From positions 1 to 33,692 of the IMG/VR virus record IMGVR_UViG_3300037635_000457: a stretch of DNA of 33,692 nt; one strand, written 5' to 3'. The notes beneath the pieces were generated by a model. It worked only from the letters and a program-made list of their open reading frames with translations, was not told the origin of the DNA and searched no databases. Both the position numbers and the translations under genes were made by a program. The DNA comes from a virus. Shown one piece after another: positions 8,230-28,547 of this stretch. Each line of letters begins with the position of its first letter. The stretch's first letter is position 1.

Positions 8230-8433
8230 ATGAGTAATAGTGAAAAAAAGTTTATTGATACCAAGCAACTAGCTAAACGCTGGATGCGGTCTCCAAGGAC
8301 TATTGAGAACTGGAGAAACAAAAAAATGGGACCAAACTATCTAAAACTAGCTGGTAAAGTTGTTTACGATATGGAGGAGATTCTAAAGGAAGAAGAGAAA
8401 GCAAAGGTATCAAATGAAGCACGCTTTACTTAG
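8230..8433 (+). CDS. excisionase/AlpA-like helix-turn-helix protein
   Basis: The 67-aa protein has the layout of the MerR-like HTH_17 family: DTKQLAKRWMRSPRTIENW (helix-turn-helix, about residues 10-29) followed by a small beta wing (GPNYLKLAGKVVYD) and a charged helix. Such proteins act as phage transcription regulators or recombination directionality factors. No integrase is present, so a regulatory role is more likely. It is first in the early operon and has a palindromic candidate operator in its own promoter. Confidence 0.75.
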   Translation: MSNSEKKFIDTKQLAKRWMRSPRTIENWRNKKMGPNYLKLAGKVVYDMEEILKEEEKAKVSNEARFT

Positions 8434-9145
8434 CCCATCTTCTGCTGATAAATGGACTAATTGTCCAGGCATGCCAAAGTTAGCTGCGAAAGTTGACTAC
8501 CAGGTTGGCGTACCTGCGGCAGTAGGAACATTAATACACTCTATGACAGAGCAGCTGTTGAAGGGTTACATAGTAGATGTTAGTTTAGAAGACTATTGGT
8601 TAGGTAAAAAAGAATTAGTTGAGGATTTTGAAATAGAAGTAGATCAAGACATGATAGATTGCGCGAAAGTCTACGTTAATTATGTTCAAAATCGTACAAA
8701 AGAAATTGACGGGAGACTGCTTGTTGAACAAAAGGTTAGGCTGGAAGAGATTTCAGACAATCTATACGGTTATGCTGACGCGCTAATCGTAACCCCTAAG
8801 AGAATGTGCGTTATCGACCTTAAAACTGGTAAGTTTCCTGTCAGCCCAGACAACAACAAACAAGCAATGATATATGCCCTAGGCGCATTATCAAGATATG
8901 GTAGTGAAGACACAGAAATTGAGATTACTATCGTACAACCTAGAGCTACATGGGGCGGCGGCCCTATAAAAACATGGGTTACAACTGCTGAATATTTAGT
9001 AGATTGGGCCTACGATTTCTTACAGCCCGCTGTTAATGCGTGCGAAGAAGAAAATCCTGTATATGTATACGGGGATCACTGTCGCTGGTGCAACGCGAGA
9101 AGCATTTGCGATTTATATAAACAAAATAACAAGGAAAAAAAATGA
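8414..9145 (+). CDS. Cas4/RecB-like PD-(D/E)XK nuclease with Fe-S cysteines
   Basis: The 243-aa protein has the full RecB-family motif set: IHSMTEQ (His42), GYADALIV (Asp122), VIDLKTGK (Asp135, Lys137) and KQAMIYALG (Gln150). Cys17 in NCPGMP and the C-terminal trio Cys223, Cys226 and Cys232 form the four-cysteine staple that binds an iron-sulphur cluster in Cas4 and AddB. It matches the phage DUF2800 group. It probably degrades or processes DNA ends for recombination-dependent replication, together with the Sak4-like ATPase and SSB-like protein downstream. It overlaps the HTH gene by 20 bases. Confidence 0.8.
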   Translation: MKHALLSPSSADKWTNCPGMPKLAAKVDYQVGVPAAVGTLIHSMTEQLLKGYIVDVSLEDYWLGKKELVEDFEIEVDQDMIDCAKVYVNYVQNRTKEIDGRLLVEQKVRLEEISDNLYGYADALIVTPKRMCVIDLKTGKFPVSPDNNKQAMIYALGALSRYGSEDTEIEITIVQPRATWGGGPIKTWVTTAEYLVDWAYDFLQPAVNACEEENPVYVYGDHCRWCNARSICDLYKQNNKEKK

Positions 9146-9387
9146 GCAATAACGAAGAAGTAAAAACCTTTAGCTTTGAAGAGGGTGGACAAGAATATAA
9201 TCTTGACGATCTTAATGATGAGCAAGGTTTGTTGTATAACAAATTAGCAGTACTAGAAAAACAAAAAAATGAATTTGTTGGTAATGCTAATTTTGAAGTA
9301 GAGAAGCTTGACATATTAAGAGCTGAGTACTCAAGAAGACTAAAAGAGTCATTAGAAAACGAATCAGTAATTGAGGTGGCAGAATGA
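9142..9387 (+). CDS. small coiled-coil early protein
   Basis: An 81-aa acidic protein overlapping both neighbours by four bases (ATGA type). After a short N-terminal beta segment (TFSFEEGGQEYNLDDLNDEQ), almost all of it is predicted helix with heptad-like leucines (LLYNKLAVLEKQKNEF, then LDILRAEYSRRL). Similar small proteins (DUF6447-like, from memory) accompany phage recombination genes. Tight coupling to the nuclease and ATPase suggests a partner or assembly role; no function is assigned. Confidence 0.65.
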   Translation: MSNNEEVKTFSFEEGGQEYNLDDLNDEQGLLYNKLAVLEKQKNEFVGNANFEVEKLDILRAEYSRRLKESLENESVIEVAE

Positions 9388-10109
9388 GTCTAGCTGATAT
9401 ACGAAAAAAATCTAAGCAGAAACCACCACGAATTATCGTACATGGTGGACCAGCTGTTGGTAAAACATTCTTAGCTTCACAAACTAAAAACCCTATCTTA
9501 TTAGATGTCGAAGATGGTTTAGGTAAAATAGAAATGGACAACATTCGTTGTAAGACTTACCAAGACGTAATGGAAAATCTAAACGAGCTAGCCACCGAGG
9601 AACATGACTATAAAACAGTATGTATTGATTCTCTTGATTGGTTAGAGAATTTATTATGGGAAAAGGCTTGCCAGGACAACGGTTGGAAATCAATAGATCA
9701 ACCAAGTTTCGGAAAGGGCTATACCGAAACGCTTAACTACTGGCGCAAGTACATTGACGCTCTTAATGTATTAAGAGAAAAAGGTATGATGATATTCCAG
9801 ATATGCCACAGTGAAGTTAGAAAAGTAGAAGATCCTAGAATAGAGCCTTATGATAGGTACTCACTTAAATTGCATAGAAAAGCTGCGGCATTGTTGTTAG
9901 AACACTCAGACGCATGTTTCTTTGCAGCAAAAAAACTTGGCACTGTTAAGGTGCAAGGTAAAAGCGGCGGTATGACTACTAAAACTGTCAGCGGTGACAG
10001 AATTGTATACACCAATGAAGAGCCAGCTTTTTTAGCTAAAAACAGATACAACCTTCCAGATGAAATACCAATGGATTGGGAAACTATTAGAAAGGAGATG
10101 TTGAAATGA
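9384..10109 (+). CDS. Sak4-like RecA-fold ATPase
   Basis: The 241-aa protein has a Walker A GGPAVGKT (residues 21-28), an acidic DVEDGLG after strand 2, and a Walker B strand TVCIDSLD with Asp82. A conserved phage-type segment YWRKYIDALNVLREKG leads to ICHSE. This fits the AAA_24/Sak4 group, single-domain RecA-like proteins that promote single-strand annealing with a phage SSB. Its neighbours, a Cas4-like nuclease and an SSB-like protein, complete a recombination cassette. A DnaB-type helicase is unlikely because the protein is short and a full helicase lies downstream. Confidence 0.7.
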   Translation: MSLADIRKKSKQKPPRIIVHGGPAVGKTFLASQTKNPILLDVEDGLGKIEMDNIRCKTYQDVMENLNELATEEHDYKTVCIDSLDWLENLLWEKACQDNGWKSIDQPSFGKGYTETLNYWRKYIDALNVLREKGMMIFQICHSEVRKVEDPRIEPYDRYSLKLHRKAAALLLEHSDACFFAAKKLGTVKVQGKSGGMTTKTVSGDRIVYTNEEPAFLAKNRYNLPDEIPMDWETIRKEMLK

Positions 10110-10234
10110 ACGAAATAATTTTAAAAGAATACAACGAGTTTGATACTGGTGAAGATCCACAATACACAGATGGTTATTGTAACTACTGCGGATCTAAAGA
10201 GGATGACTGCGTTGAATATAAATGTTGGATATAA
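10106..10234 (+). CDS. 42-aa zinc-ribbon-like microprotein
   Basis: The ATG overlaps the previous stop (ATGA) and has a strong ribosome site (AAAGGAG). The product has CNYCG followed by two more cysteines (DDCVEYKCW), a CxxC...C....C pattern suggesting a small zinc-binding knuckle. The N-terminus is acidic. It lies between the recombination ATPase and the SSB-like gene, so a DNA-metabolism accessory role is plausible. The family is unknown to me. Confidence 0.6.
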   Translation: MNEIILKEYNEFDTGEDPQYTDGYCNYCGSKEDDCVEYKCWI

Positions 10235-10249
10235 CAGAGGAGAAAAATA

Positions 10250-10756
10250 ATGGACTTAAGTAAATATAATAATGTAAACCTAGAAACTGACGGCAAGGTT
10301 AGTTTAGAACCAAAAAGATACGTCTTGCACTATTACGGTGAAAAAGAAGGCTTGATAAGTAAGACCAACCCTAACTGGGAAGGTTATAGTATTAAGTTTG
10401 AAGTAGCTGATACTGGTCAAACTGTAGATGCTATGTTTCACATGCAGCATCAAAAAGAAAGCGTTGTAACAAACAGCTTAAAATCTTTGTTAGCTATGTG
10501 TAAAGCAATGGGCTTGCAAGAACTTCCAGATGACACTCAATCTGCTTTTATGGGTAAAAGTGTCACAGCTCTTATTAAACAAAAGCAAGACAGCATCTAT
10601 TTTGAAGTTGACCATGAGTGGGGAGAAACATGGAAACCCGCTAATGAAAAGAAAAAAACGGTAAGCGAAAAACCGATTGAAGCATCACCATCGGCTGCTG
10701 ATCTTGAAAAAATGGGATCAACAACGGTAGACGATGACGAAGACGCGCCGTTTTAG
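10250..10756 (+). CDS. SSB-like protein (DUF669-type)
   Basis: The 168-aa protein has a beta-rich body (RYVLHYYGEKEG, then YSIKFEVADTGQTVDAMFH), a helical middle and a low-complexity linker ending in the acidic tip TVDDDEDAPF. An acidic tail ending in Asp/Glu-Pro-Phe is the hallmark by which single-stranded DNA-binding proteins recruit partners. I infer a phage SSB that would coat DNA for the Sak4-like annealer and the primase-helicase. The ribosome site GAGGAG is strong. The OB fold is not proven from sequence alone. Confidence 0.6.
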   Translation: MDLSKYNNVNLETDGKVSLEPKRYVLHYYGEKEGLISKTNPNWEGYSIKFEVADTGQTVDAMFHMQHQKESVVTNSLKSLLAMCKAMGLQELPDDTQSAFMGKSVTALIKQKQDSIYFEVDHEWGETWKPANEKKKTVSEKPIEASPSAADLEKMGSTTVDDDEDAPF

Positions 10757-11129
10757 CCTCAAGGAAGATAGGCCCACGCTTTGTGGATATTGTAAATCCC
10801 CAGCTGGGCCATTTTTGTACGAAGATAACAACAACTGGATTGGAGCATGCTGTATGGCTCATTTAGACAAAATTAAAGAAGGCAAACGCCTTCCAAATAA
10901 GGCGCAACTTAATGACATTGGTACCGAGTACGCTATAGCATCCACCAAAGACTTATATAAAAAATTATTAATTGCTAACAAAGAAAATCCATTACACAAA
11001 TGGAAACGTGAAGATAGAAAAAAAGTATTTGTTTCAATTATTAGAGAATATCTAAACTGGGCTAACGCCAGAGCCAAAGAAGATGATGAGAGAGCTTTAA
11101 ATGGATCTAAAAAAATACTGCAACGATAG
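10734..11129 (+). CDS. early protein with N-terminal cysteine knuckle
   Basis: A 131-aa basic protein overlapping the SSB-like gene by 23 bases and the primase-helicase by 29. Residues about 16-45 carry CGYC and a downstream ACC..H, compatible with a zinc site; the remainder is helical and lysine-rich (LHKWKREDRKKVFVSIIREY). The zinc site next to a primase gene invites comparison with a detached primase zinc-binding domain, but the spacing is not canonical. Function is unassigned. Confidence 0.6.
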   Translation: MTKTRRFSLKEDRPTLCGYCKSPAGPFLYEDNNNWIGACCMAHLDKIKEGKRLPNKAQLNDIGTEYAIASTKDLYKKLLIANKENPLHKWKREDRKKVFVSIIREYLNWANARAKEDDERALNGSKKILQR

Positions 11130-12930
11130 AAACATATTATTTGAAACAAAAAACAAAGAAACAAAAACAATAAATGATTTAATGAATGAGATGCAGGCGC
11201 AAGGCTTGCAGGTAAATCATTTACAAGCGTCTGGAGAAATAGTCAGAGTACCCACAGCGTTACCAGGAATGAAGCCAGACTTAGGTGGCGCTAGATCAGG
11301 CTGGTATGTAGTCAATACATTCAATGGCCATCACTTTGCCACTTATGGTAATTGGAAGACTGGTTTTGAGGGTAAGTGGAGTTCTGTTAGTTCCTCTACA
11401 TTAAGCCAGGTTGATAGAGAAGCCTTACAGAAAAAAATGGAGCAGGCTGCGAAAGAAGAGAGTATTAAGCGGAAGGCTAGGCAGGATGAGGTGGCTATAG
11501 AGATAAGGGAAAAATTTGATAAATGTCAAAATGTTATTGAACATGAATATCTCACGAATAAAAAGGTTAAAAACTATGGGTTGAAACAATCGTACGATAG
11601 CTTGATTGTTCCCGTGTATTCTACTACAGGTCAGATAAGATCTATACAGTATATCGATAAAAAAGGTAACAAAAAGTTTGCTTCATCGTCAGAAATTAAA
11701 GGTAATGTATTTTTAATTGGAACTACATTCAATGAACTAGCAAGTTGTGAAAAGTTGATAGTAGCTGAAGGTTACTCAACATCCGCAACAATATATGAAG
11801 CTACCCAAATTCCCGTGGCTTGCGTTTTTAGTGCCAATTTTACATTGGATGCAGTCTCTAAATTTCGCAGGTTAACGGGTGCTAGAATTATTTTGGCTTT
11901 GGACCATGATGACAATGGAGTGGGCGAAAAGAAAGCCCAGGAATGTGCAACTGCAATACCCAACGTGGCCGTGCGTCTGCCCAGCGAACGTGGTGATTAC
12001 AATGATTTATATCTAAGGCATGGTTTAGATAAAGTTAAAGCTGAACTCATGGACCACAAGTTAGGCATACAAAAATACGCGATCAGAAACCTAGTCGGTA
12101 AGCCAGAACCACAAAAATTTTTAGTGGATGGATTAATACCAATGGGTAAACCTGGACTGTTAGCAGCGTCAGGTGGCGTTGGAAAGTCTTTGAGTGTAAT
12201 TCAACTGGCATTAAGAATAGCTTGCGGTGGTGGCCGTTGGTGGGGTAAAGATGTTAAGGAACATGGAAACGTAATTTTGTTTTCAGCTGAAGATGATATA
12301 CCAGAGATCCACAGAAGATTAGATCTATTAGATCCAAACGGCAACAGGTTTAAAAGTGAATATGATGTTTATATTTTTCCAGTTCCAGAGCAAAAAGAAC
12401 CAATGATATTGTTAAAGGAAGAGGGCGTCACTCAGCTTGCACAAGATTTGGTTGAGGAGCTGCAAGTTATACCAGATTTAAAGTTGGTTTGTTTTGATCC
12501 GCTCCAGGCATTCACTACTGGTAACGTATCAAGCAGTAACGAGGCGGGACAGCTTTGGGGATCTTACTGTGCAAACATCAGCGCAAGGTTAAACTGTTGC
12601 ACGCTAACTATTCACCACTTAAATAAACAAGGCTTGACTGTGGACTCAGATGATTCAATGGTTCAGAGAACCAGCGTGCGCGGCGCATCGTCACTCGTGG
12701 ACTCAATAAGATTTGTTCTTGTAATGGCACTGGCAAGTGTTGAGGATTGTGAAAGGATTTGTGAAGAGCAACATGTGCCTTACGATAGAATGGCGGTGGT
12801 TAGAGGCGCGCTAGTAAAATCCAACAGCGGAGGCGTAGACTATTCCTCTAAAACATTATTCAGACGCAACGGTGTGTTAGAGCCATTAAATGAACCGCTA
12901 GATACCAGTAATTTATATGACAATTTTTAA
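11101..12930 (+). CDS. TOPRIM primase - RepA-type helicase fusion
   Basis: A 609-aa two-domain replication enzyme. Residues about 30-320 are primase-like, with the TOPRIM glutamate motif VAEGYSTSATI (Glu223) and ALDHDDNG (Asp268, Asp270, Asp271). Residues about 330-590 are a RecA-fold helicase: Walker A ASGGVGKS (356-363), FSAEDD after strand 2 and Walker B LVCFDPLQAF (Asp466). The helicase half resembles the hexameric RepA of IncQ plasmids (AAA_25 class) rather than DnaB or T7 gp4. No zinc-binding domain is visible at the N-terminus. It would unwind and prime the phage DNA and lies directly upstream of the candidate origin. Confidence 0.85.
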   Translation: MDLKKYCNDRNILFETKNKETKTINDLMNEMQAQGLQVNHLQASGEIVRVPTALPGMKPDLGGARSGWYVVNTFNGHHFATYGNWKTGFEGKWSSVSSSTLSQVDREALQKKMEQAAKEESIKRKARQDEVAIEIREKFDKCQNVIEHEYLTNKKVKNYGLKQSYDSLIVPVYSTTGQIRSIQYIDKKGNKKFASSSEIKGNVFLIGTTFNELASCEKLIVAEGYSTSATIYEATQIPVACVFSANFTLDAVSKFRRLTGARIILALDHDDNGVGEKKAQECATAIPNVAVRLPSERGDYNDLYLRHGLDKVKAELMDHKLGIQKYAIRNLVGKPEPQKFLVDGLIPMGKPGLLAASGGVGKSLSVIQLALRIACGGGRWWGKDVKEHGNVILFSAEDDIPEIHRRLDLLDPNGNRFKSEYDVYIFPVPEQKEPMILLKEEGVTQLAQDLVEELQVIPDLKLVCFDPLQAFTTGNVSSSNEAGQLWGSYCANISARLNCCTLTIHHLNKQGLTVDSDDSMVQRTSVRGASSLVDSIRFVLVMALASVEDCERICEEQHVPYDRMAVVRGALVKSNSGGVDYSSKTLFRRNGVLEPLNEPLDTSNLYDNF

Positions 12931-22302: not shown

Positions 22303-22382
22303 AGTTTATAAGTTATCTTATAGACAAATTTTTAGAACGGTCATTCCAAAAAACAGAAGACAGATTAACAAAATCTAAATGA
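22299..22382 (+). CDS. possible 27-aa microprotein, GTG start
   Basis: A GTG overlapping the previous stop opens a frame (VKFISYLIDKFLERSFQKTE and seven more residues) whose TGA overlaps the ATG of the next gene. The product would be one amphipathic helix. It exactly fills a 76-base gap. There is no good ribosome site and GTG starts are rare here, so it may be chance. Confidence 0.3.
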   Translation: MKFISYLIDKFLERSFQKTEDRLTKSK

Positions 22383-22729
22383 ACGACATTGTTACCTTAA
22401 TAACCGAGTTAGGTTTTCCTGTAGCTGCGGCTATAGGTTTAGGTATGTTCGTATGGAAACTGATTAACAGAATTATAGATGGTATGGAAACTAAATTAGA
22501 TACCGTAGATGATAAGGTTAATACATCACTCACAGCTATGGAAGATAGACTAGGAACAAAACTAGACACACAACATGGTATTCTTGTAGCATTGATAGAT
22601 AGAGTCAGGTCGTTAGATAACGAGATTATCAGACAAGACACAATGATTAAAACCATGTTAGGTGTACCACAATTAATAGACACTAACAAAATAGGTAAAG
22701 CAAAAAGAAATGACAAAAGGAAAGATTAG
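22379..22729 (+). CDS. single-TM coiled-coil protein at the head of the curli-like block
   Basis: The 116-aa protein has one membrane helix near the N-terminus (ELGFPVAAAIGLGMFVWKLI, about residues 10-29), then a long heptad-patterned helix (IDGMETKLDTVDDKVNTSLT onward) and a basic C-terminal tail (IGKAKRNDKRKD). This resembles small phage membrane proteins of the XhlA/holin-accessory kind, but I see no specific signature. It overlaps csgF by 20 bases, so it is probably co-expressed with the secretion genes and may belong to that system or to membrane lysis. Confidence 0.65.
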   Translation: MNDIVTLITELGFPVAAAIGLGMFVWKLINRIIDGMETKLDTVDDKVNTSLTAMEDRLGTKLDTQHGILVALIDRVRSLDNEIIRQDTMIKTMLGVPQLIDTNKIGKAKRNDKRKD

Positions 22730-23147
22730 TTTATTGGTATTATGTTTATCTGTATCAGCAGATGAAATGGTACATAAATTTAAGTCACCGTCATTCTCTG
22801 GTATTGGTACATCTGCACACTATTTGACTATAGAAAACCAAATGCACACTAGAAAGATGACTCTAAAAGCAGAGATCAAAGCATTACAAGACGAGATAGA
22901 AAGAGATAAAGAAAATACTACACTAGCTAGGTTTATTAGAAACTTGGAAAGCAGAATCTATGCACAGCTATCAAGACAGCTAGTAGAAAACTTATTTGGT
23001 GAAACTGCAAGCACCAGTGGTATTTTAGAGTTAGAAGGTAACACTATAGAGTATAATGTTGTTGACGGTATAATAACTTTAACAATAACGGATTCTAATG
23101 GTGATACAACGACTATATCTTTACCTGTTGGCAACTTTACTTTCTAG
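22710..23147 (+). CDS. csgF: CsgF-like curli accessory protein
   Basis: The 145-aa protein has a signal peptide (MTKGKISLLVLCLSVSA, cleavage before DEMVHKF). The mature N-terminus, HKFKSPSFSGIG then AHYLTIENQ, matches the CsgF segment (F..NP.FGG.P..G..LL..A..QN) that plugs into the CsgG channel and forms its second constriction. The middle helix (LARFIRNLESRIYAQLSRQL) corresponds to CsgF FTQAIQSQIL..L, and the C-terminal strands (IEYNVVDGIITLTITDSNGD) to its VDI...GQLQLNVTD region. It would sit at the outer-membrane pore encoded next. The mature part is longer than E. coli CsgF. Confidence 0.85.
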   Translation: MTKGKISLLVLCLSVSADEMVHKFKSPSFSGIGTSAHYLTIENQMHTRKMTLKAEIKALQDEIERDKENTTLARFIRNLESRIYAQLSRQLVENLFGETASTSGILELEGNTIEYNVVDGIITLTITDSNGDTTTISLPVGNFTF

Positions 23148-23961
23148 TTGCGCGATAATAATAGATCCGTTAGAAAACAATCTACCACCACTACAAAAAA
23201 TAGAAAAGCCAGAGATAGGATCATTATTAGTTCCAGAACTTGCTAACATAAAAACAAACAACAAAACAAAACCAGTAGTAGCAATTTATGCTGGTTCGTT
23301 CACAGACCAAACTGGTCAACGTAGAAGTAATAGTACGTACGCAACTTTTAGTTCTGCTGTAACACAAGCCCCAGATGCTTATTTAATAAGAGCGTTGAAA
23401 CATGCTGGTAGCAATAATGATGGTTTTTTTGAAGTGGTAGAGCGTGTAGGTTTAGACCATGTAACTAAAGAAAGACAAATCATAAGAAGTACCAGGCAAG
23501 AGTTTAAAAAAGATACCAAATTACAACCACTTATGTTCGCGGGTTTAATAATGCAAGGTGGCGTGATATCATACGAAAGTAACGTAAAGAGTGGAGGTGC
23601 TGGAGCTAGATACCTTGGAATAGGAATGTCTAGGCAGTACAAACAAGATACAGTTACCATCTCCTTACGTACCGTATCTGTGAGTACGGGTAAAGTATTA
23701 CTAGAAGTACTAGTAACTAAAACGATATTAAGTGCATCTATAGATCAAGATATCTTTCGTTTTATTAGTGATTCAACCGAACTAGTAGAAGTAGAGAACG
23801 GTTTAGTCAGAAACGAGTCAATCAATATAGCACTACAAACAGCGATAGAAACTGCTGTTTTACAAACTATAAAAGAAGGAAAAACTAGAGGATATTGGAG
23901 TTATGAAGAATTTAAAACAATTGATTGCGACACTGATTGTCTTACCGCTATTCGCGGCTGA
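23098..23961 (+). CDS. csgG: CsgG outer-membrane curli secretion lipoprotein
   Basis: The 287-aa protein has a lipoprotein signal with lipobox LSSC (Cys18). The body carries CsgG hallmarks: VVAIYAGSFTDQTGQ (CsgG VSVYNIQDETGQ), FSSAVTQAPDAYLIRALK, FFEVVERVGL, RQIIRSTRQ, ISYESNVKSGGAGARYLGIG and ISLRTVSVSTGKVL followed by TKTILS. YESNVKSGG lies in the region that forms the pore and constriction. CsgG assembles a nonameric channel that exports curlin. Its first 50 bases overlap csgF in another frame. This is one of the most certain calls in the window. Confidence 0.95.
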   Translation: MVIQRLYLYLLATLLSSCAIIIDPLENNLPPLQKIEKPEIGSLLVPELANIKTNNKTKPVVAIYAGSFTDQTGQRRSNSTYATFSSAVTQAPDAYLIRALKHAGSNNDGFFEVVERVGLDHVTKERQIIRSTRQEFKKDTKLQPLMFAGLIMQGGVISYESNVKSGGAGARYLGIGMSRQYKQDTVTISLRTVSVSTGKVLLEVLVTKTILSASIDQDIFRFISDSTELVEVENGLVRNESINIALQTAIETAVLQTIKEGKTRGYWSYEEFKTIDCDTDCLTAIRG

Positions 23962-24613
23962 CAACGAGATATTTGTAGAGCAAGCTGGTGCAACAGCAAA
24001 CATAGACTTAGAGCAACTAGGCTCATCTAATATTATAGGCGGTCTTAATTCTATAGCTGGTACATTGACAGCATTGGATCTTGACGGTATTAATTTAACA
24101 CTAGATATCAACCAGATAGGTAATACAAATAAATTCCTTGGTGATATTTACGGTGACAACATTACAGGATTTTTTGAATTTGATGGTGACAGTAATACAT
24201 TTACTATACAAGCAGATCCAACAGACACTTATGGTATTAGTGGATCAGACTACAATGTTGATGTTACAGGTAGCTCTAACACATTCACGTTAGATACTGG
24301 TACAAGTGCGTTAAGCGAAAACCTAGACTTAGATTGGATAATCAATGGTGACAGTAATACTTTTGATTTTGATATTAATTATGATGGTGCTACTAGCTAT
24401 GTTGATGTAGATGGAGATAGCAACACAGTAAACTTTACAGGAAGTGGATATGCAGGAGGGTACTTCTATCTCGACCAAACAGGAAACAGTAGAACATTCA
24501 ACATCATACAGTCATCAACTCTTGCTGCTGATTGGTTACAGATTAACTCTACTGGCTCTAGCGGTACTGTTTGCGTCGTTCAAAGCGACGGCGGAACAAG
24601 CACAAGCTGTTGA
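23903..24613 (+). CDS. secreted curlin-like repeat protein
   Basis: The 236-aa protein has a signal peptide (MKNLKQLIATLIVLPLFA). The mature part contains irregular 20-27-residue repeats with curlin-like cores: EQAGATANIDLEQLGSSN, INQIGNTN, then GDSNTFTI (95-102), GSSNTFTL, GDSNTFDF, GDSNTVNF and DQTGNSRTFN. The Q-x-G-x-x-N spacing at the start is that of CsgA/CsgB repeats; later repeats exchange Gln for Asp. Two cysteines near the C-terminus (224, 236) could form a disulphide. It is the likely substrate of the CsgG pore encoded just upstream. The protein is very acidic and could form extracellular fibres. Confidence 0.75.
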   Translation: MKNLKQLIATLIVLPLFAADNEIFVEQAGATANIDLEQLGSSNIIGGLNSIAGTLTALDLDGINLTLDINQIGNTNKFLGDIYGDNITGFFEFDGDSNTFTIQADPTDTYGISGSDYNVDVTGSSNTFTLDTGTSALSENLDLDWIINGDSNTFDFDINYDGATSYVDVDGDSNTVNFTGSGYAGGYFYLDQTGNSRTFNIIQSSTLAADWLQINSTGSSGTVCVVQSDGGTSTSC

Positions 24614-25643
24614 TGTAGGAAACATATCTGAGCTAACTGGCTCTGCACAAGTTGTAAGAGATAAACCATATAAAGCTACAGAGTCGTTTGATATACAGCA
24701 AAACGATGAGGCCATTACATCTAATGGTCGTATGGCTATTACATTCCTAGATGATTCTAAAGTTAAGCTAACTGAACACTCACAATTGACTATAGATGAA
24801 TACGTCTTTGATCCTAACCCTAGTAAATCTAAAATGGCTATTACCTTTGGTCTTGGCACAGCCAGGTTTATTACAGGTAGTCTTAATAAAATAGATAAAA
24901 ACAATATAGATTTAAAAACACCTACAGCAAACATAGCTATACGTGGTACTGACTTTACCGTAACAGTAGACGAGGTAGGAAGATCATTACTAATACTTCT
25001 ACCAGATGAATTTGGTTTATCTAGTGGTGAGATCCTAGTAACAACAGCTATGGGTACAGTTACACTAAACAAACCCTACGAAGCCACAACGGTAGATGTG
25101 TATGAAAAGTCACCAAGCAAACCAGTTATATTGGATTTAACACTAGAGTTGATAGATAACATGCTTATTGTGAACCCGCCACAGCAAGAAATAACTGAAG
25201 AAGAAACTATACAAACCAAAAAGAAAAACATATTAGACTTTGATGATTTAGATATAGATTACTTAGAAGAAGACTTGTTAGACTCAGAGCAAGAACTAGA
25301 GTTTACAGAGTTAGATATAAATTATCTTGATGTAAACTTTTTAGAAGACTTGCTAGATGTCATAGACGCATTACAAGAAATCCAAGAAGAAGATCAGCTT
25401 GCTCAAGATGCTACGTCAACTAACATTGTTGGTACACAGCTAGGGCAAGACTTAAACACACAAATAACATCGTATATAACTGGTGAGGTATTAACGCTTA
25501 TGCGTAACGTGAACGATACAGCTAGAATAGATGTGGATTCATCAGCTAGTTATACAGTTATCTTTATACAAGACGGTGCGTCTAAAGTTGTAAAAATTAA
25601 TGGCGGTACTGGTAGTATTATAAAAATAACTCAAAGCAATTAA
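24450..25643 (+). CDS. exported FecR-domain protein
   Basis: I take the ATG at 24450 (AGGAAG upstream); a GTG at 24444 or a TTG near 24522 are alternatives. After about 25 polar residues comes a signal peptide or anchor (LTLLALAVLFASFKATA). The FecR domain follows: VGNISELTGSAQVVRD, NGRMAITFLDDSKVKLTEHS, GTARFITGSL and KTPTANIAIRGTDFTVTVDE. The next region is highly acidic with two DIDYLEEDLL / DINYLDVNFLEDLL repeats, then a beta C-terminus (ASYTVIFIQDGASKVVKING). FecR domains sense or bind partners in the periplasm; here it probably pairs with the CHASE2 cyclase, whose gene it overlaps by one base. Confidence 0.85.
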   Translation: MQEGTSISTKQETVEHSTSYSHQLLLLIGYRLTLLALAVLFASFKATAEQAQAVDVGNISELTGSAQVVRDKPYKATESFDIQQNDEAITSNGRMAITFLDDSKVKLTEHSQLTIDEYVFDPNPSKSKMAITFGLGTARFITGSLNKIDKNNIDLKTPTANIAIRGTDFTVTVDEVGRSLLILLPDEFGLSSGEILVTTAMGTVTLNKPYEATTVDVYEKSPSKPVILDLTLELIDNMLIVNPPQQEITEEETIQTKKKNILDFDDLDIDYLEEDLLDSEQELEFTELDINYLDVNFLEDLLDVIDALQEIQEEDQLAQDATSTNIVGTQLGQDLNTQITSYITGEVLTLMRNVNDTARIDVDSSASYTVIFIQDGASKVVKINGGTGSIIKITQSN

Positions 25644-27388
25644 TGAAACGACTACTATTCATCATACTTATAATACTAGTGTTGCCTTTGTTATATCAGT
25701 CAACGCCTACAGAAATATTAAAGTTAAAGGTATTTGACTATTTAGTACCAAAGCAACAACCATCTGGTTACTTTACTATTTTAAATATTACAGAAGAAGA
25801 TATTGCTAATGAAGGTGGTTGGCCGTTACCAAGAAAAAGATTAGGACAAATACACACAGAGATAATAGCTAAAGGTGCTATAGGTGCTGGTTATGTTATT
25901 GGTTTTCCACAACCCGATAGGATGGGTGGTGATGTTTACTTAGCAGAGTCATTAAAGTATGGCACTTCTGTTTTAGCAATGTTTGAAAATCCTAATGGTA
26001 ATTATCCACCAACAACAGGAACTGTCATACTCGGTGATGATATAGGCGGTATGACTACAAATGGTGTCATACAAAACATAAAGATATTAACAACTTATGC
26101 ACAGGAAGGTATTGCAACTGCACCAACTGATGTAGATAACTTAGTAAGAAGAATACCGTTATTGTTAAGAACGCCAGATGGATATGTACCCGCGTTTGGC
26201 ACAGAAGTATTAAAAGCATTGGTAGATGCAAAAACCTATGTAATAAAAACAAATGATCTTGGTATAGAAGAAATAAGAGTAAAAGGATTGCCACCAGTTG
26301 CTACCGACAGTTTAGGTCGTAAGTGGATTAGTTGGGTAGACACACCACAAACCAATTTACAAGAAATGGATGTTGTTGGTAAGTTTGTATTTGTTGGTGT
26401 AACTGCTCCAGGTATCATGCCACAGATTGCAACTCCAGTTGGTTTATTAGAACCACATAGAATACAAGCAGCATTATCTGAGTCAATCTTGCTAGAAAAC
26501 TCACCAAAGATTCCTGACTGGCATTTATCAGCCGAAATTTTGATTTTTGGAATTTTTGTGTCGCTGACGTGGCTTGTAATTAATTATCTCAGCATAGTTA
26601 AGGGCATAAGTCTCGCTATAATTTTACTCTTCACCACGGGCTTCTCAGGCGTTTTTAGCGTTCAAAAAGGCATTTTGTTGGATTTTTCATGGACTTTTAT
26701 CTCACAAATACTAATTTCTACAATTGCTTTGTATTTAAGCTACAAAAAACAATATAAATTACGTCAACAAATAAAAAAGCAGTTTGAGCATTACCTAGAT
26801 CCAAGACAAGTTAAAGAATTACAAAAGAATCCAGAGTTATTAAAACTTGGCGGTGAGAAAAAAGAAGCAACATTTTTATTTACAGATGTTAGAGGTTTTA
26901 CAAATTTAAGTGAGAAGTTAGAACCAGAAGAAGTTACTAAGATTATGAATGACGCATTGACCATACAATCTAACGCGGTACAAGAACACGGTGGCATGGT
27001 AGATAAATATATTGGTGATGCAATGATGGCAATATTTAACGCACCTATATCTATGGATGACCATAAAGAAAAAGCTATGCAAGCTGCTATAAAAATAATT
27101 GAAGACATGAGTAAAGCAAATTTAGATATAGCTATAGGCATAGGTATAAATACAGGCACTGCTGTTATTGGTAACATGGGTAGCAATACTAGGTTTGATT
27201 ATTCTGCTATTGGTGATTGTGTAAATACAGCTGCAAGATTAGAGTCGGCTACTAAAGAAGTTGGCGTAGATATATTGATTGGTGAATCTACTGCAAATAA
27301 ATCTAAAATTAAGTTAAAATTATTAAAACCAATAAAAGTTAAAGGAAAAGAGAAAGCCTTAACTATTTATACAATTGATAAGGAGTAA
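25643..27388 (+). CDS. CHASE2-type transmembrane class III nucleotide cyclase
   Basis: The 581-aa protein has an N-terminal membrane helix (3-18), a large CHASE2-like extracytoplasmic sensor (about 30-290, with GGWPLPRKRLGQIH and KFVFVGVTAPG), three further helices (about 297-318, 320-338, 347-366) and a cytoplasmic class III cyclase domain (about 405-580). Metal aspartates are Asp415 (FLFTDVRGFT) and Asp459 (DKYIGDAMMAIF). Lys455 with Ser521 form the purine-recognition pair of bacterial adenylate cyclases. Asn528 and Arg532 (VNTAARLE) complete the site. It should make cAMP in response to an envelope signal, probably with the FecR protein. Confidence 0.9.
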   Translation: MKRLLFIILIILVLPLLYQSTPTEILKLKVFDYLVPKQQPSGYFTILNITEEDIANEGGWPLPRKRLGQIHTEIIAKGAIGAGYVIGFPQPDRMGGDVYLAESLKYGTSVLAMFENPNGNYPPTTGTVILGDDIGGMTTNGVIQNIKILTTYAQEGIATAPTDVDNLVRRIPLLLRTPDGYVPAFGTEVLKALVDAKTYVIKTNDLGIEEIRVKGLPPVATDSLGRKWISWVDTPQTNLQEMDVVGKFVFVGVTAPGIMPQIATPVGLLEPHRIQAALSESILLENSPKIPDWHLSAEILIFGIFVSLTWLVINYLSIVKGISLAIILLFTTGFSGVFSVQKGILLDFSWTFISQILISTIALYLSYKKQYKLRQQIKKQFEHYLDPRQVKELQKNPELLKLGGEKKEATFLFTDVRGFTNLSEKLEPEEVTKIMNDALTIQSNAVQEHGGMVDKYIGDAMMAIFNAPISMDDHKEKAMQAAIKIIEDMSKANLDIAIGIGINTGTAVIGNMGSNTRFDYSAIGDCVNTAARLESATKEVGVDILIGESTANKSKIKLKLLKPIKVKGKEKALTIYTIDKE

Positions 27389-27390
27389 TT

Positions 27391-27471
27391 ATGCCAAGAG
27401 GTAAAGGAACATACGGATCTAAAGTAGGTAGACCGCCTAAAAAGAAAAAAGTAAAAAAAACTAAAAAGTGA
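27391..27471 (+). CDS. 26-aa AT-hook-like basic microprotein
   Basis: A perfect AAGGAG ribosome site precedes the ATG two bases after the cyclase gene. The product, MPRGKGTYGSKVGRPPKKKK plus VKKTKK, belongs to a short phage pattern (GKGTYGS..GRP.KKK) and has an AT-hook-like GRPPKKKK. The TGA overlaps the GTG of the next gene. It likely binds DNA; its function is unknown. Confidence 0.65.
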   Translation: MPRGKGTYGSKVGRPPKKKKVKKTKK

Positions 27472-27806
27472 AACCATCATCTGCAAAAGCCAAAGGGAGA
27501 GCTTTGCAACAATGGGTAGTAGACAAACTTGTTGAACTACTAGGATTTGATCCAGAAGATTTAGAATCAAGACCAATGGGTTCTAATGGTGAAGATATCA
27601 TCATGGGCGTGCAATCTCGCAAACAATTCCCATATTCAGTAGAGTGTAAAAATCAAGAAGCTGTTAATGTGTGGAAAGCATACGAACAATCGCAAGAGAA
27701 CTGTAAAGATTACGAACCTTTGGTTATAATTAAAAGAAACAGAACAAAACCATTAGCATTAGTAGATGCTGAGTATTTTTTAAAATTACATAAAAAAGAT
27801 GATTGA
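27468..27806 (+). CDS. small PD-(D/E)XK resolvase-like nuclease
   Basis: The 112-aa protein starts at a GTG that overlaps the previous stop. It has the compact nuclease core: an N-terminal helix with GRALQQWVVDKL, then SRPMGSNGEDIIMG (Asp43) and FPYSVECKNQ (Glu59-Cys-Lys61), the D...ExK motif, followed by VNVWKAYEQSQEN. This fits phage Holliday-junction-resolvase/VRR-type enzymes that clear branched DNA before packaging. It is the third PD-(D/E)XK protein in the window. It overlaps the holin gene by eight bases. Confidence 0.7.
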   Translation: MKPSSAKAKGRALQQWVVDKLVELLGFDPEDLESRPMGSNGEDIIMGVQSRKQFPYSVECKNQEAVNVWKAYEQSQENCKDYEPLVIIKRNRTKPLALVDAEYFLKLHKKDD

Positions 27807-28179
27807 TAAACTAATAGGACCAGTAGGTGACATTGTCAGCAAGCTAGTGCCAGATAAAGACTTACAAGCAAAACTAAACCATGAACTCAAAACAGAATTA
27901 CATAAAGCGAATATGGCACAGATTGAGATCAACAAGATTGAAGCTGGACATAGATCCTTATTCGTTGCGGGCTGGAGGCCCTTTGTGGGCTGGACTTGTG
28001 GGATTGCTATGCTGTACCACTTTTTATTACAGCCTATTATTATATTCGGACTATCAGCAGCTGGACTATCATTTGACTTACCAACTTTTGACATGGGTTC
28101 GCTAATGACTGTATTAATGGGTATGCTAGGACTTGGTGGACTTAGAACATTTGAAAAAACTAAAGGAGTTACAAAATGA
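27799..28179 (+). CDS. 3-TM holin (GTA holin type)
   Basis: The 126-aa protein has an amphipathic N-terminal helix with charged linker (DLQAKLNHELKTELHKAN), the signature AGHRSLFVAGWRPFVGW, then hydrophobic segments (WTCGIAMLYHFLLQPIIIF and MGSLMTVLMGMLGLGGL). The RS.FV.GWRPF.GW motif is that of the GTA_holin_3TM family. It would permeabilise the inner membrane and let the M15 endolysin, encoded immediately downstream with a four-base overlap, reach the wall. Confidence 0.85.
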   Translation: MIDKLIGPVGDIVSKLVPDKDLQAKLNHELKTELHKANMAQIEINKIEAGHRSLFVAGWRPFVGWTCGIAMLYHFLLQPIIIFGLSAAGLSFDLPTFDMGSLMTVLMGMLGLGGLRTFEKTKGVTK

Positions 28180-28547
28180 GTTGGAAGAATTTTACGTTAG
28201 AAGAATTTGCATGTAAGCATACTGGCGAAAATAAAATAGAACATGAACTTATAGACAAACTACAAGCACTAAGAACAGAGTGCGGATTCCCATTTAAAAT
28301 CACATCTGGTTATAGGAGCGCAGATCATCCTGTAGAAAGAAAAAAATCAAAACCTGGTACACATGCTTTAGGTTTAGCAGCTGATATAGGCGTTAGAGGA
28401 CAACAAGCATTAGAAATTATATCTAAAGCTAGAGACTTTGGTTTTACTGGTATCGGTGTAAATCAAAAAGGTAATGCAAGATTCATACATCTTGATATAT
28501 CTAAAGATTCGCAAGGTAGACCTAGACCACATATTTGGAGTTATTAA
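28176..28547 (+). CDS. M15 peptidase endolysin
   Basis: The 123-aa enzyme is a peptidase M15A: the zinc ligands are His63 and Asp70 in GTHALGLAADI and His105 in FIHLDIS, with SGYRSADHPVE before them. It starts LEEFACKHTGE, the usual N-terminus of the phage group. It cleaves peptide cross-links of peptidoglycan as endolysin. No signal peptide is present, so export depends on the holin upstream. Its stop overlaps the following start (TAATG). Confidence 0.9.
   Translation: MSWKNFTLEEFACKHTGENKIEHELIDKLQALRTECGFPFKITSGYRSADHPVERKKSKPGTHALGLAADIGVRGQQALEIISKARDFGFTGIGVNQKGNARFIHLDISKDSQGRPRPHIWSY

Follow-up and report, generated by a model that had tools for sequence, protein, structure and literature searches.

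Why would a phage carry the genes of a bacterial curli exporter, and why together with those of a signalling enzyme? The question is raised by a linear virus record of IMG/VR, IMGVR_UViG_3300037635_000457, which was analysed whole (33,692 b; hereafter the window). At positions 22379–27388 six genes, for the most part overlapping, run in one direction. They encode a small transmembrane (TM) protein, CsgF, the export pore CsgG, a protein with curlin repeats, an exported protein with a FecR domain and a CHASE2 adenylate cyclase (Table 1). We consider the chances about even that these genes form a mobile phage curli (type VIII) secretion module, in which a late curli-type exporter is joined to an envelope-sensing adenylate cyclase and which alters the surface of the infected cell.

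Profile searches recover CsgF and CsgG with matches well beyond chance, and the window's CsgG also matches the E. coli CsgG structures 3x2r and 6l7a at 2e-40. The other products named in the first-pass annotation, a curlin-like protein, an exported FecR protein and a CHASE2 cyclase, are present as well. That annotation had counted five genes and made CsgF the first of them; the identities stand, and the starting coordinate does not, since the CsgF profile match is to 22710–23147, which rules out 22379–22729 as CsgF, and a sixth gene sits there. The CHASE2 domain (PF05226) occupies residues 10–304 of the cyclase, ahead of its output domain, and the candidate starts of the FecR gene (GTG 24444, ATG 24450, TTG 24522) all lie within the curlin gene. 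Existing families of PHROGs cover CsgF, CsgG, FecR and the cyclase.

When IMG/VR was scanned with CsgG, at least 579 related stretches came up; the locus counts given here refer to the best 80 of these, each partner being counted only in loci whose contig extends far enough. Gene order was invariant across the 80 viral loci. The small TM gene was present in 59/59 loci, csgF in 73/73, the curlin gene in 75/75, the FecR gene in 64/64 and the cyclase gene in 49/53. Purifying selection acts on each of the six genes, with ratios of nonsynonymous to synonymous substitution (dN/dS) of 0.02–0.21 and, for curlin, 0.03–0.09. The window cyclase keeps all of its catalytic residues, namely two metal-binding Asp, the Lys–Asp pair that recognizes adenine, and the transition-state Asn and Arg. 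In alignment columns of 51 homologues both metal Asp, the Lys and the Arg are found in 51/51, the adenine-pair Asp in 49/51 and the Asn in 50/51. Fixed order, purifying selection and retained active-site residues together support the earlier proposal that a curli-type pore, its likely substrate and an envelope-sensing cyclase belong to one unit.

As a kind, the module is already described, and what is new here is a further lineage and a context that can be tested. The first-pass annotation had believed the combination "not a described system", a belief that the literature shows to be wrong. Wittmers et al. (2022, PMC9599517) reported the order histidine kinase–CsgF–CsgG–CsgA/B–FecR–(CsgA/B)–adenylate cyclase in HTVC023P-type podophages and pelagimyophages, detected viral curli proteins at 65 ocean stations, noted the absence of CsgE, and proposed superinfection defence, aggregation and uptake. 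Parts of the module, with ideas of aggregation and of lysis, appear in Zaragoza-Solas et al. (2020, PMC7029224), Tominaga et al. (2020, PMC7198788) and Buchholz et al. (2022, PMC9004378). The window shares with the module of Wittmers et al. the order from CsgF to the cyclase after one or more short genes, as well as the lack of CsgC, CsgD and, as far as the proteins of the module and its neighbours were scanned, of CsgE. It differs in its podophage backbone, in having no second curlin gene and in a first gene devoid of the kinase domain that the published name "histidine kinase" implies; moreover, holin, endolysin and lysozyme are unmentioned in the main text of that paper. The isolated phages HTVC008M and Melnitz (PMC7029224, PMC9004378) have homologues of CsgF, CsgG, curlin, FecR and the cyclase in the same order as the window, but they are T4-like myophages with two short TM genes and an additional curlin gene (bearing a PA14 domain in HTVC008M), and the Melnitz cyclase, unlike that of the window, apparently lacks catalytic residues. 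A T4-like Bacteroidetes viral genome carries csgA, csgG and csgF homologues (printed csrA/G/F), for which aggregation was proposed, whereas FecR and a cyclase are unmentioned in the available part of that paper (PMC7198788).

The window phage combines an SU10-type portal with an epsilon15-like terminase (TerL) and is closer to HTVC106P, itself only a distant relative (portal 33%, capsid 41%), than to HTVC023P or HTVC027P. Comparison with HTVC023P and HTVC027P, over the initial 45 kb of either genome, gave two weak protein matches only, and for want of shared core genes an HTVC023P-type backbone is rejected. Hence the window is an instance of the module in a further, different podophage lineage, which is new here. 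Other carriers of the module are podophage contigs of 55–60 kb whose virion proteins are PBC5-like, HTVC023P-like contigs, and one contig with tail genes of siphophage type (L069). The CsgG tree places the viral sequences in a single supported group, inside which these backbones are interleaved, with at least five changes of label for SU10 and four for 023P (labels were assigned by gene sharing, half of the loci being unlabelled). It follows from this interleaving that the module has repeatedly passed between backbones. The two isolated myophages fall outside the viral group, on long branches. OR851715.1, an unannotated 1,499 b entry named "Salmonella phage S.Kent 1-2-1", matches CsgG at 39.5% and is probably csg DNA of a host that was deposited under a phage name.

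The first gene is the sixth, obligate component of the module. It lies upstream of csgF/csgG in every locus of the CsgG-based set where it could be seen, and when the small TM protein itself served as query in an independent scan, csgF/csgG lay downstream in 71/71 of the closest loci. Its product has a single N-terminal TM helix followed by a coiled coil, measures 93–116 amino acids among members, and matched phrog_18771 in 26/26 of the proteins scanned. None of these 26 contains a kinase family (Pfam, E<0.1), which rules out "histidine kinase" as a name for the first gene; its equation with the gene so called by Wittmers et al. is drawn from position and from its presence in one or two copies. 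Weak matches to holin families were obtained with some members (phrog_4898 in 6/26, best 2e-5; phrog_1296 in 2/26), and the window's protein had no holin-family match below 0.01. In three loci (L022, L056, L080) a small protein with a VVDGDT(V/F)D motif, which by eye looks nuclease-like, is encoded directly upstream of the module and ends at the small TM gene.

The curlin-repeat protein of the window matches Melnitz_101 (BLASTP 7e-17), which itself passes Pfam Curlin_rpt. It has six GxS/TN motifs spaced 22–33 residues apart, a number reached by 0/5000 shuffles, and its AlphaFold (AF2) model is beta-rich and solenoid-like (predicted local distance difference test, pLDDT, 80.7); a Foldseek search with this model returned nothing below E=0.001. 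A C-terminal cysteine pair (C224 and C236 of the product of 23903–24613) is invariant in the alignment of the module's IMG/VR curlins and is not present in the myophage curlins. Because five curlin repeats follow a PA14 domain (PF07691, 2.7e-6) in HTVC008M gp18 (L002, 10435–11760), annotated as hypothetical, that protein is possibly a sugar-binding, curlin-type adhesin. The FecR protein consists of a signal peptide and a FecR domain with no further Pfam domain. Its tail seems to resemble a curlin repeat by motif only: QxGxx[NS]x[VIAL] occurs in 36/55 tails against 1.4 in shuffles, the tails being related and so non-independent, and a profile comparison of tail and curlin repeats was non-significant (hhalign probability ~1%).

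Do FecR and the cyclase accompany curli genes in bacteria? Bacterial curli (type VIII) operons resemble the module in their CsgF, CsgG and curlin-repeat neighbours, since several of 28 bacterial loci examined have curlin genes next to csgFG, but differ in that no FecR or CHASE2 cyclase gene lies within 8 kb of csgG in any of the 28, in agreement with Wittmers et al.; such genes as bacterial csgG neighbours are therefore rejected. The pairing itself does recur in bacteria. A FecR gene stands directly upstream of, and on the same strand as, 6 of 28 bacterial CHASE2 genes (20 genomes), where our own estimate would expect about 0.1. The two bacterial pairs whose domains were scanned both encode a LysM-FecR protein and then a CHASE2-histidine kinase. 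Like the phage module, they have the gene of an exported FecR protein immediately upstream of that of a CHASE2 membrane sensor; unlike it, they have histidine-kinase output and a LysM on FecR, and are without curli linkage. In S. meliloti CyaD1, deletion of CHASE2 makes the production of cyclic AMP (cAMP) constitutive (PMC5498481). Because such gene pairs recur and CHASE2 restrains CyaD1 in this way, our analysis suggests that FecR and the CHASE2 cyclase may be a pair that senses the envelope and has been joined to a curli exporter, and not an iron regulator. In the Melnitz cyclase (L003, 11511–13562) the catalytic Asn and the adenine-binding Asp are apparently replaced (RHSYDVLGDSVSTAAR), for which reason this copy may be inactive. 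Four modules have no cyclase (L046, L047, L070, L075), and in L046, L070 and L075 spanin, holin-like or lysozyme genes come almost directly after FecR.

Except in the myophages, the module frequently borders on the lysis cassette, a context that is new. In the window the genes after the cyclase encode a nuclease, then a holin and then an M15 endolysin. An endolysin or spanin gene lies within 1.5 kb downstream of the module in 23/39 loci with enough sequence, within 1.5 kb upstream in 4/55, and on one side or the other in 13 of the 24 loci visible on both sides; the expectation by chance is ~10% by our own estimate, which takes one lysis cassette per 35–60 kb genome, and loci of the same backbone are non-independent. 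The count is of endolysins and spanins only, the "holin3TM" family, in which a true holin is merged with phrog_1544 of unknown function, being left out. Among these neighbours are endolysins of three families unrelated to one another (M15, GH24 type and T4-lysozyme type) and Rz-like spanins. Because the module adjoins lysis genes, its position suggests late expression; a late-gene insertion site is an ordinary alternative account of this proximity. A promoter scan gave a site count below that of shuffles. Elsewhere in the window, positions 8414–12930 hold a replication block of a DUF2800/PDDEXK nuclease, an AAA_24 ATPase and a Toprim/AAA_25 primase-helicase.

Table 1. Genes of the curli-type module in the window and their downstream neighbours
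Feature	Position	Strand	Evidence
Small one-TM/coiled-coil protein, 116 amino acids; first gene of module	22379..22729	+	phrog_18771
CsgF, exported curli accessory protein	22710..23147	+	PF10614 E=9.3e-19; phrog_35372 4.6e-44
CsgG outer-membrane export pore lipoprotein	23098..23961	+	PF03783 E=2.7e-45; lipobox LLSSC
Curlin-repeat protein, probable export substrate	23903..24613	+	homology to Melnitz_101, motif spacing, AF2
Exported FecR-domain protein	24522..25643 (start uncertain, 24444-24528)	+	PF04773 1.5e-9; alignment
CHASE2 sensor + class III adenylate cyclase	25643..27388	+	PF05226 3.6e-25; PF00211 2.7e-22
RusA-like / PDDEXK phage nuclease, module neighbour	27468..27806	+	phrog_244 4.7e-19
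Holin, 3 TM, lysis cassette start	27799..28179	+	PF11351 5.2e-17; phrog_3427
Endolysin, peptidase M15	28176..28547	+	PF08291 5.2e-13; phrog_894

What might such a module do? The explanation that we favour is built on the gene identities, their fixed order, selection, the catalytic residues and the linkage to lysis genes. Late in infection the module would be expressed along with the adjoining lysis genes, and CsgG, helped by CsgF, would make a pore in the outer membrane through which the curlin-repeat protein reaches the infected cell's surface. The FecR protein, once exported, would serve the CHASE2 domain as its partner in the envelope; CHASE2 in turn would gate the adenylate cyclase, and the state of export or of the envelope would be converted into a level of cAMP. 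The net effect would most likely be a stickier, altered surface on a dying cell, and the phage might benefit by shielding that cell from other phages or by keeping neighbouring hosts near the burst. Several observations weigh against this account. Infected OM43 cells did not clump (Buchholz et al., PMC9004378), and the modules of the isolated myophages HTVC008M and Melnitz have no lysis gene nearby. Taken alone, the window's curlin does not reach the Pfam curlin cut-off (0.13); the AlphaFold model of FecR is poor and unusable (pLDDT 46.6); and no CsgE match was found among the scanned proteins of the module and its neighbours (Pfam covered part of the window genes). A more elaborate version, which we think improbable, would have FecR and the CHASE2 cyclase monitor curlin export or the envelope state and, via cAMP or the small holin-like protein, be linked to the holin–endolysin–spanin cassette, the cell being coated or tethered before it bursts. 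If true, this would explain why the same module stands beside different lysis cassettes in several unrelated backbones.

The pore could instead serve lysis itself, as was suggested for Melnitz in 2022, when a pinholin- or secretin-like use was proposed (PMC9004378). The adjoining endolysins of three unrelated families, the spanins and the weakly holin-like first gene fit this idea, which we nevertheless judge rather unlikely: the curlin gene is strongly constrained and never absent from the loci where it could be sought, late-gene insertion sites are able to account for the position, and in several loci the lysis set is already complete, Rz-like spanins included, so that no lysis part is obviously missing. 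That the cyclase is the main effector, its cAMP reprogramming host metabolism while the curli parts just supply the signal, would agree with the conserved active site; but the cyclase is missing from 4/53 loci in which FecR, curlin and pore stay, catalytic residues are apparently lost in the Melnitz copy, and we regard this as decidedly improbable. Still less credence goes to the proposal of Wittmers et al. that the pore lets nutrients or cofactors such as iron complexes and cobalamin into the infected cell, FecR being a regulator linked to iron. The name FecR speaks for it, as does their argument that the pore may stay open when no CsgE gate is seen. However, the FecR protein is exported, the module has neither the cytoplasmic anti-sigma domain nor the partner sigma factor of FecIR-type iron systems, the closest alphaproteobacterial FecR matches lie within large open frames (many >800 amino acids), and a conserved substrate is left unexplained. 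Finally, the fear that a host fragment had been mis-assembled into a viral contig found no support and has next to no probability. Contigs from other metagenomes (e.g. L007, L013, L023) show the same junctions, with the module flanked by the same TerL/portal and the same holin/M15/scaffold/capsid genes as in the window, and the gene order shared by isolated HTVC008M and Melnitz refutes it for the module as such.

What were vague proposals become directly testable through the module's recurrent position next to lysis genes, the misnaming of its first gene as a "kinase" and the FecR–CHASE2 pairing. The module is abundant, and an export pore supplied by the phage together with a likely amyloid-type surface protein would alter the sticking and aggregation of infected marine bacteria.

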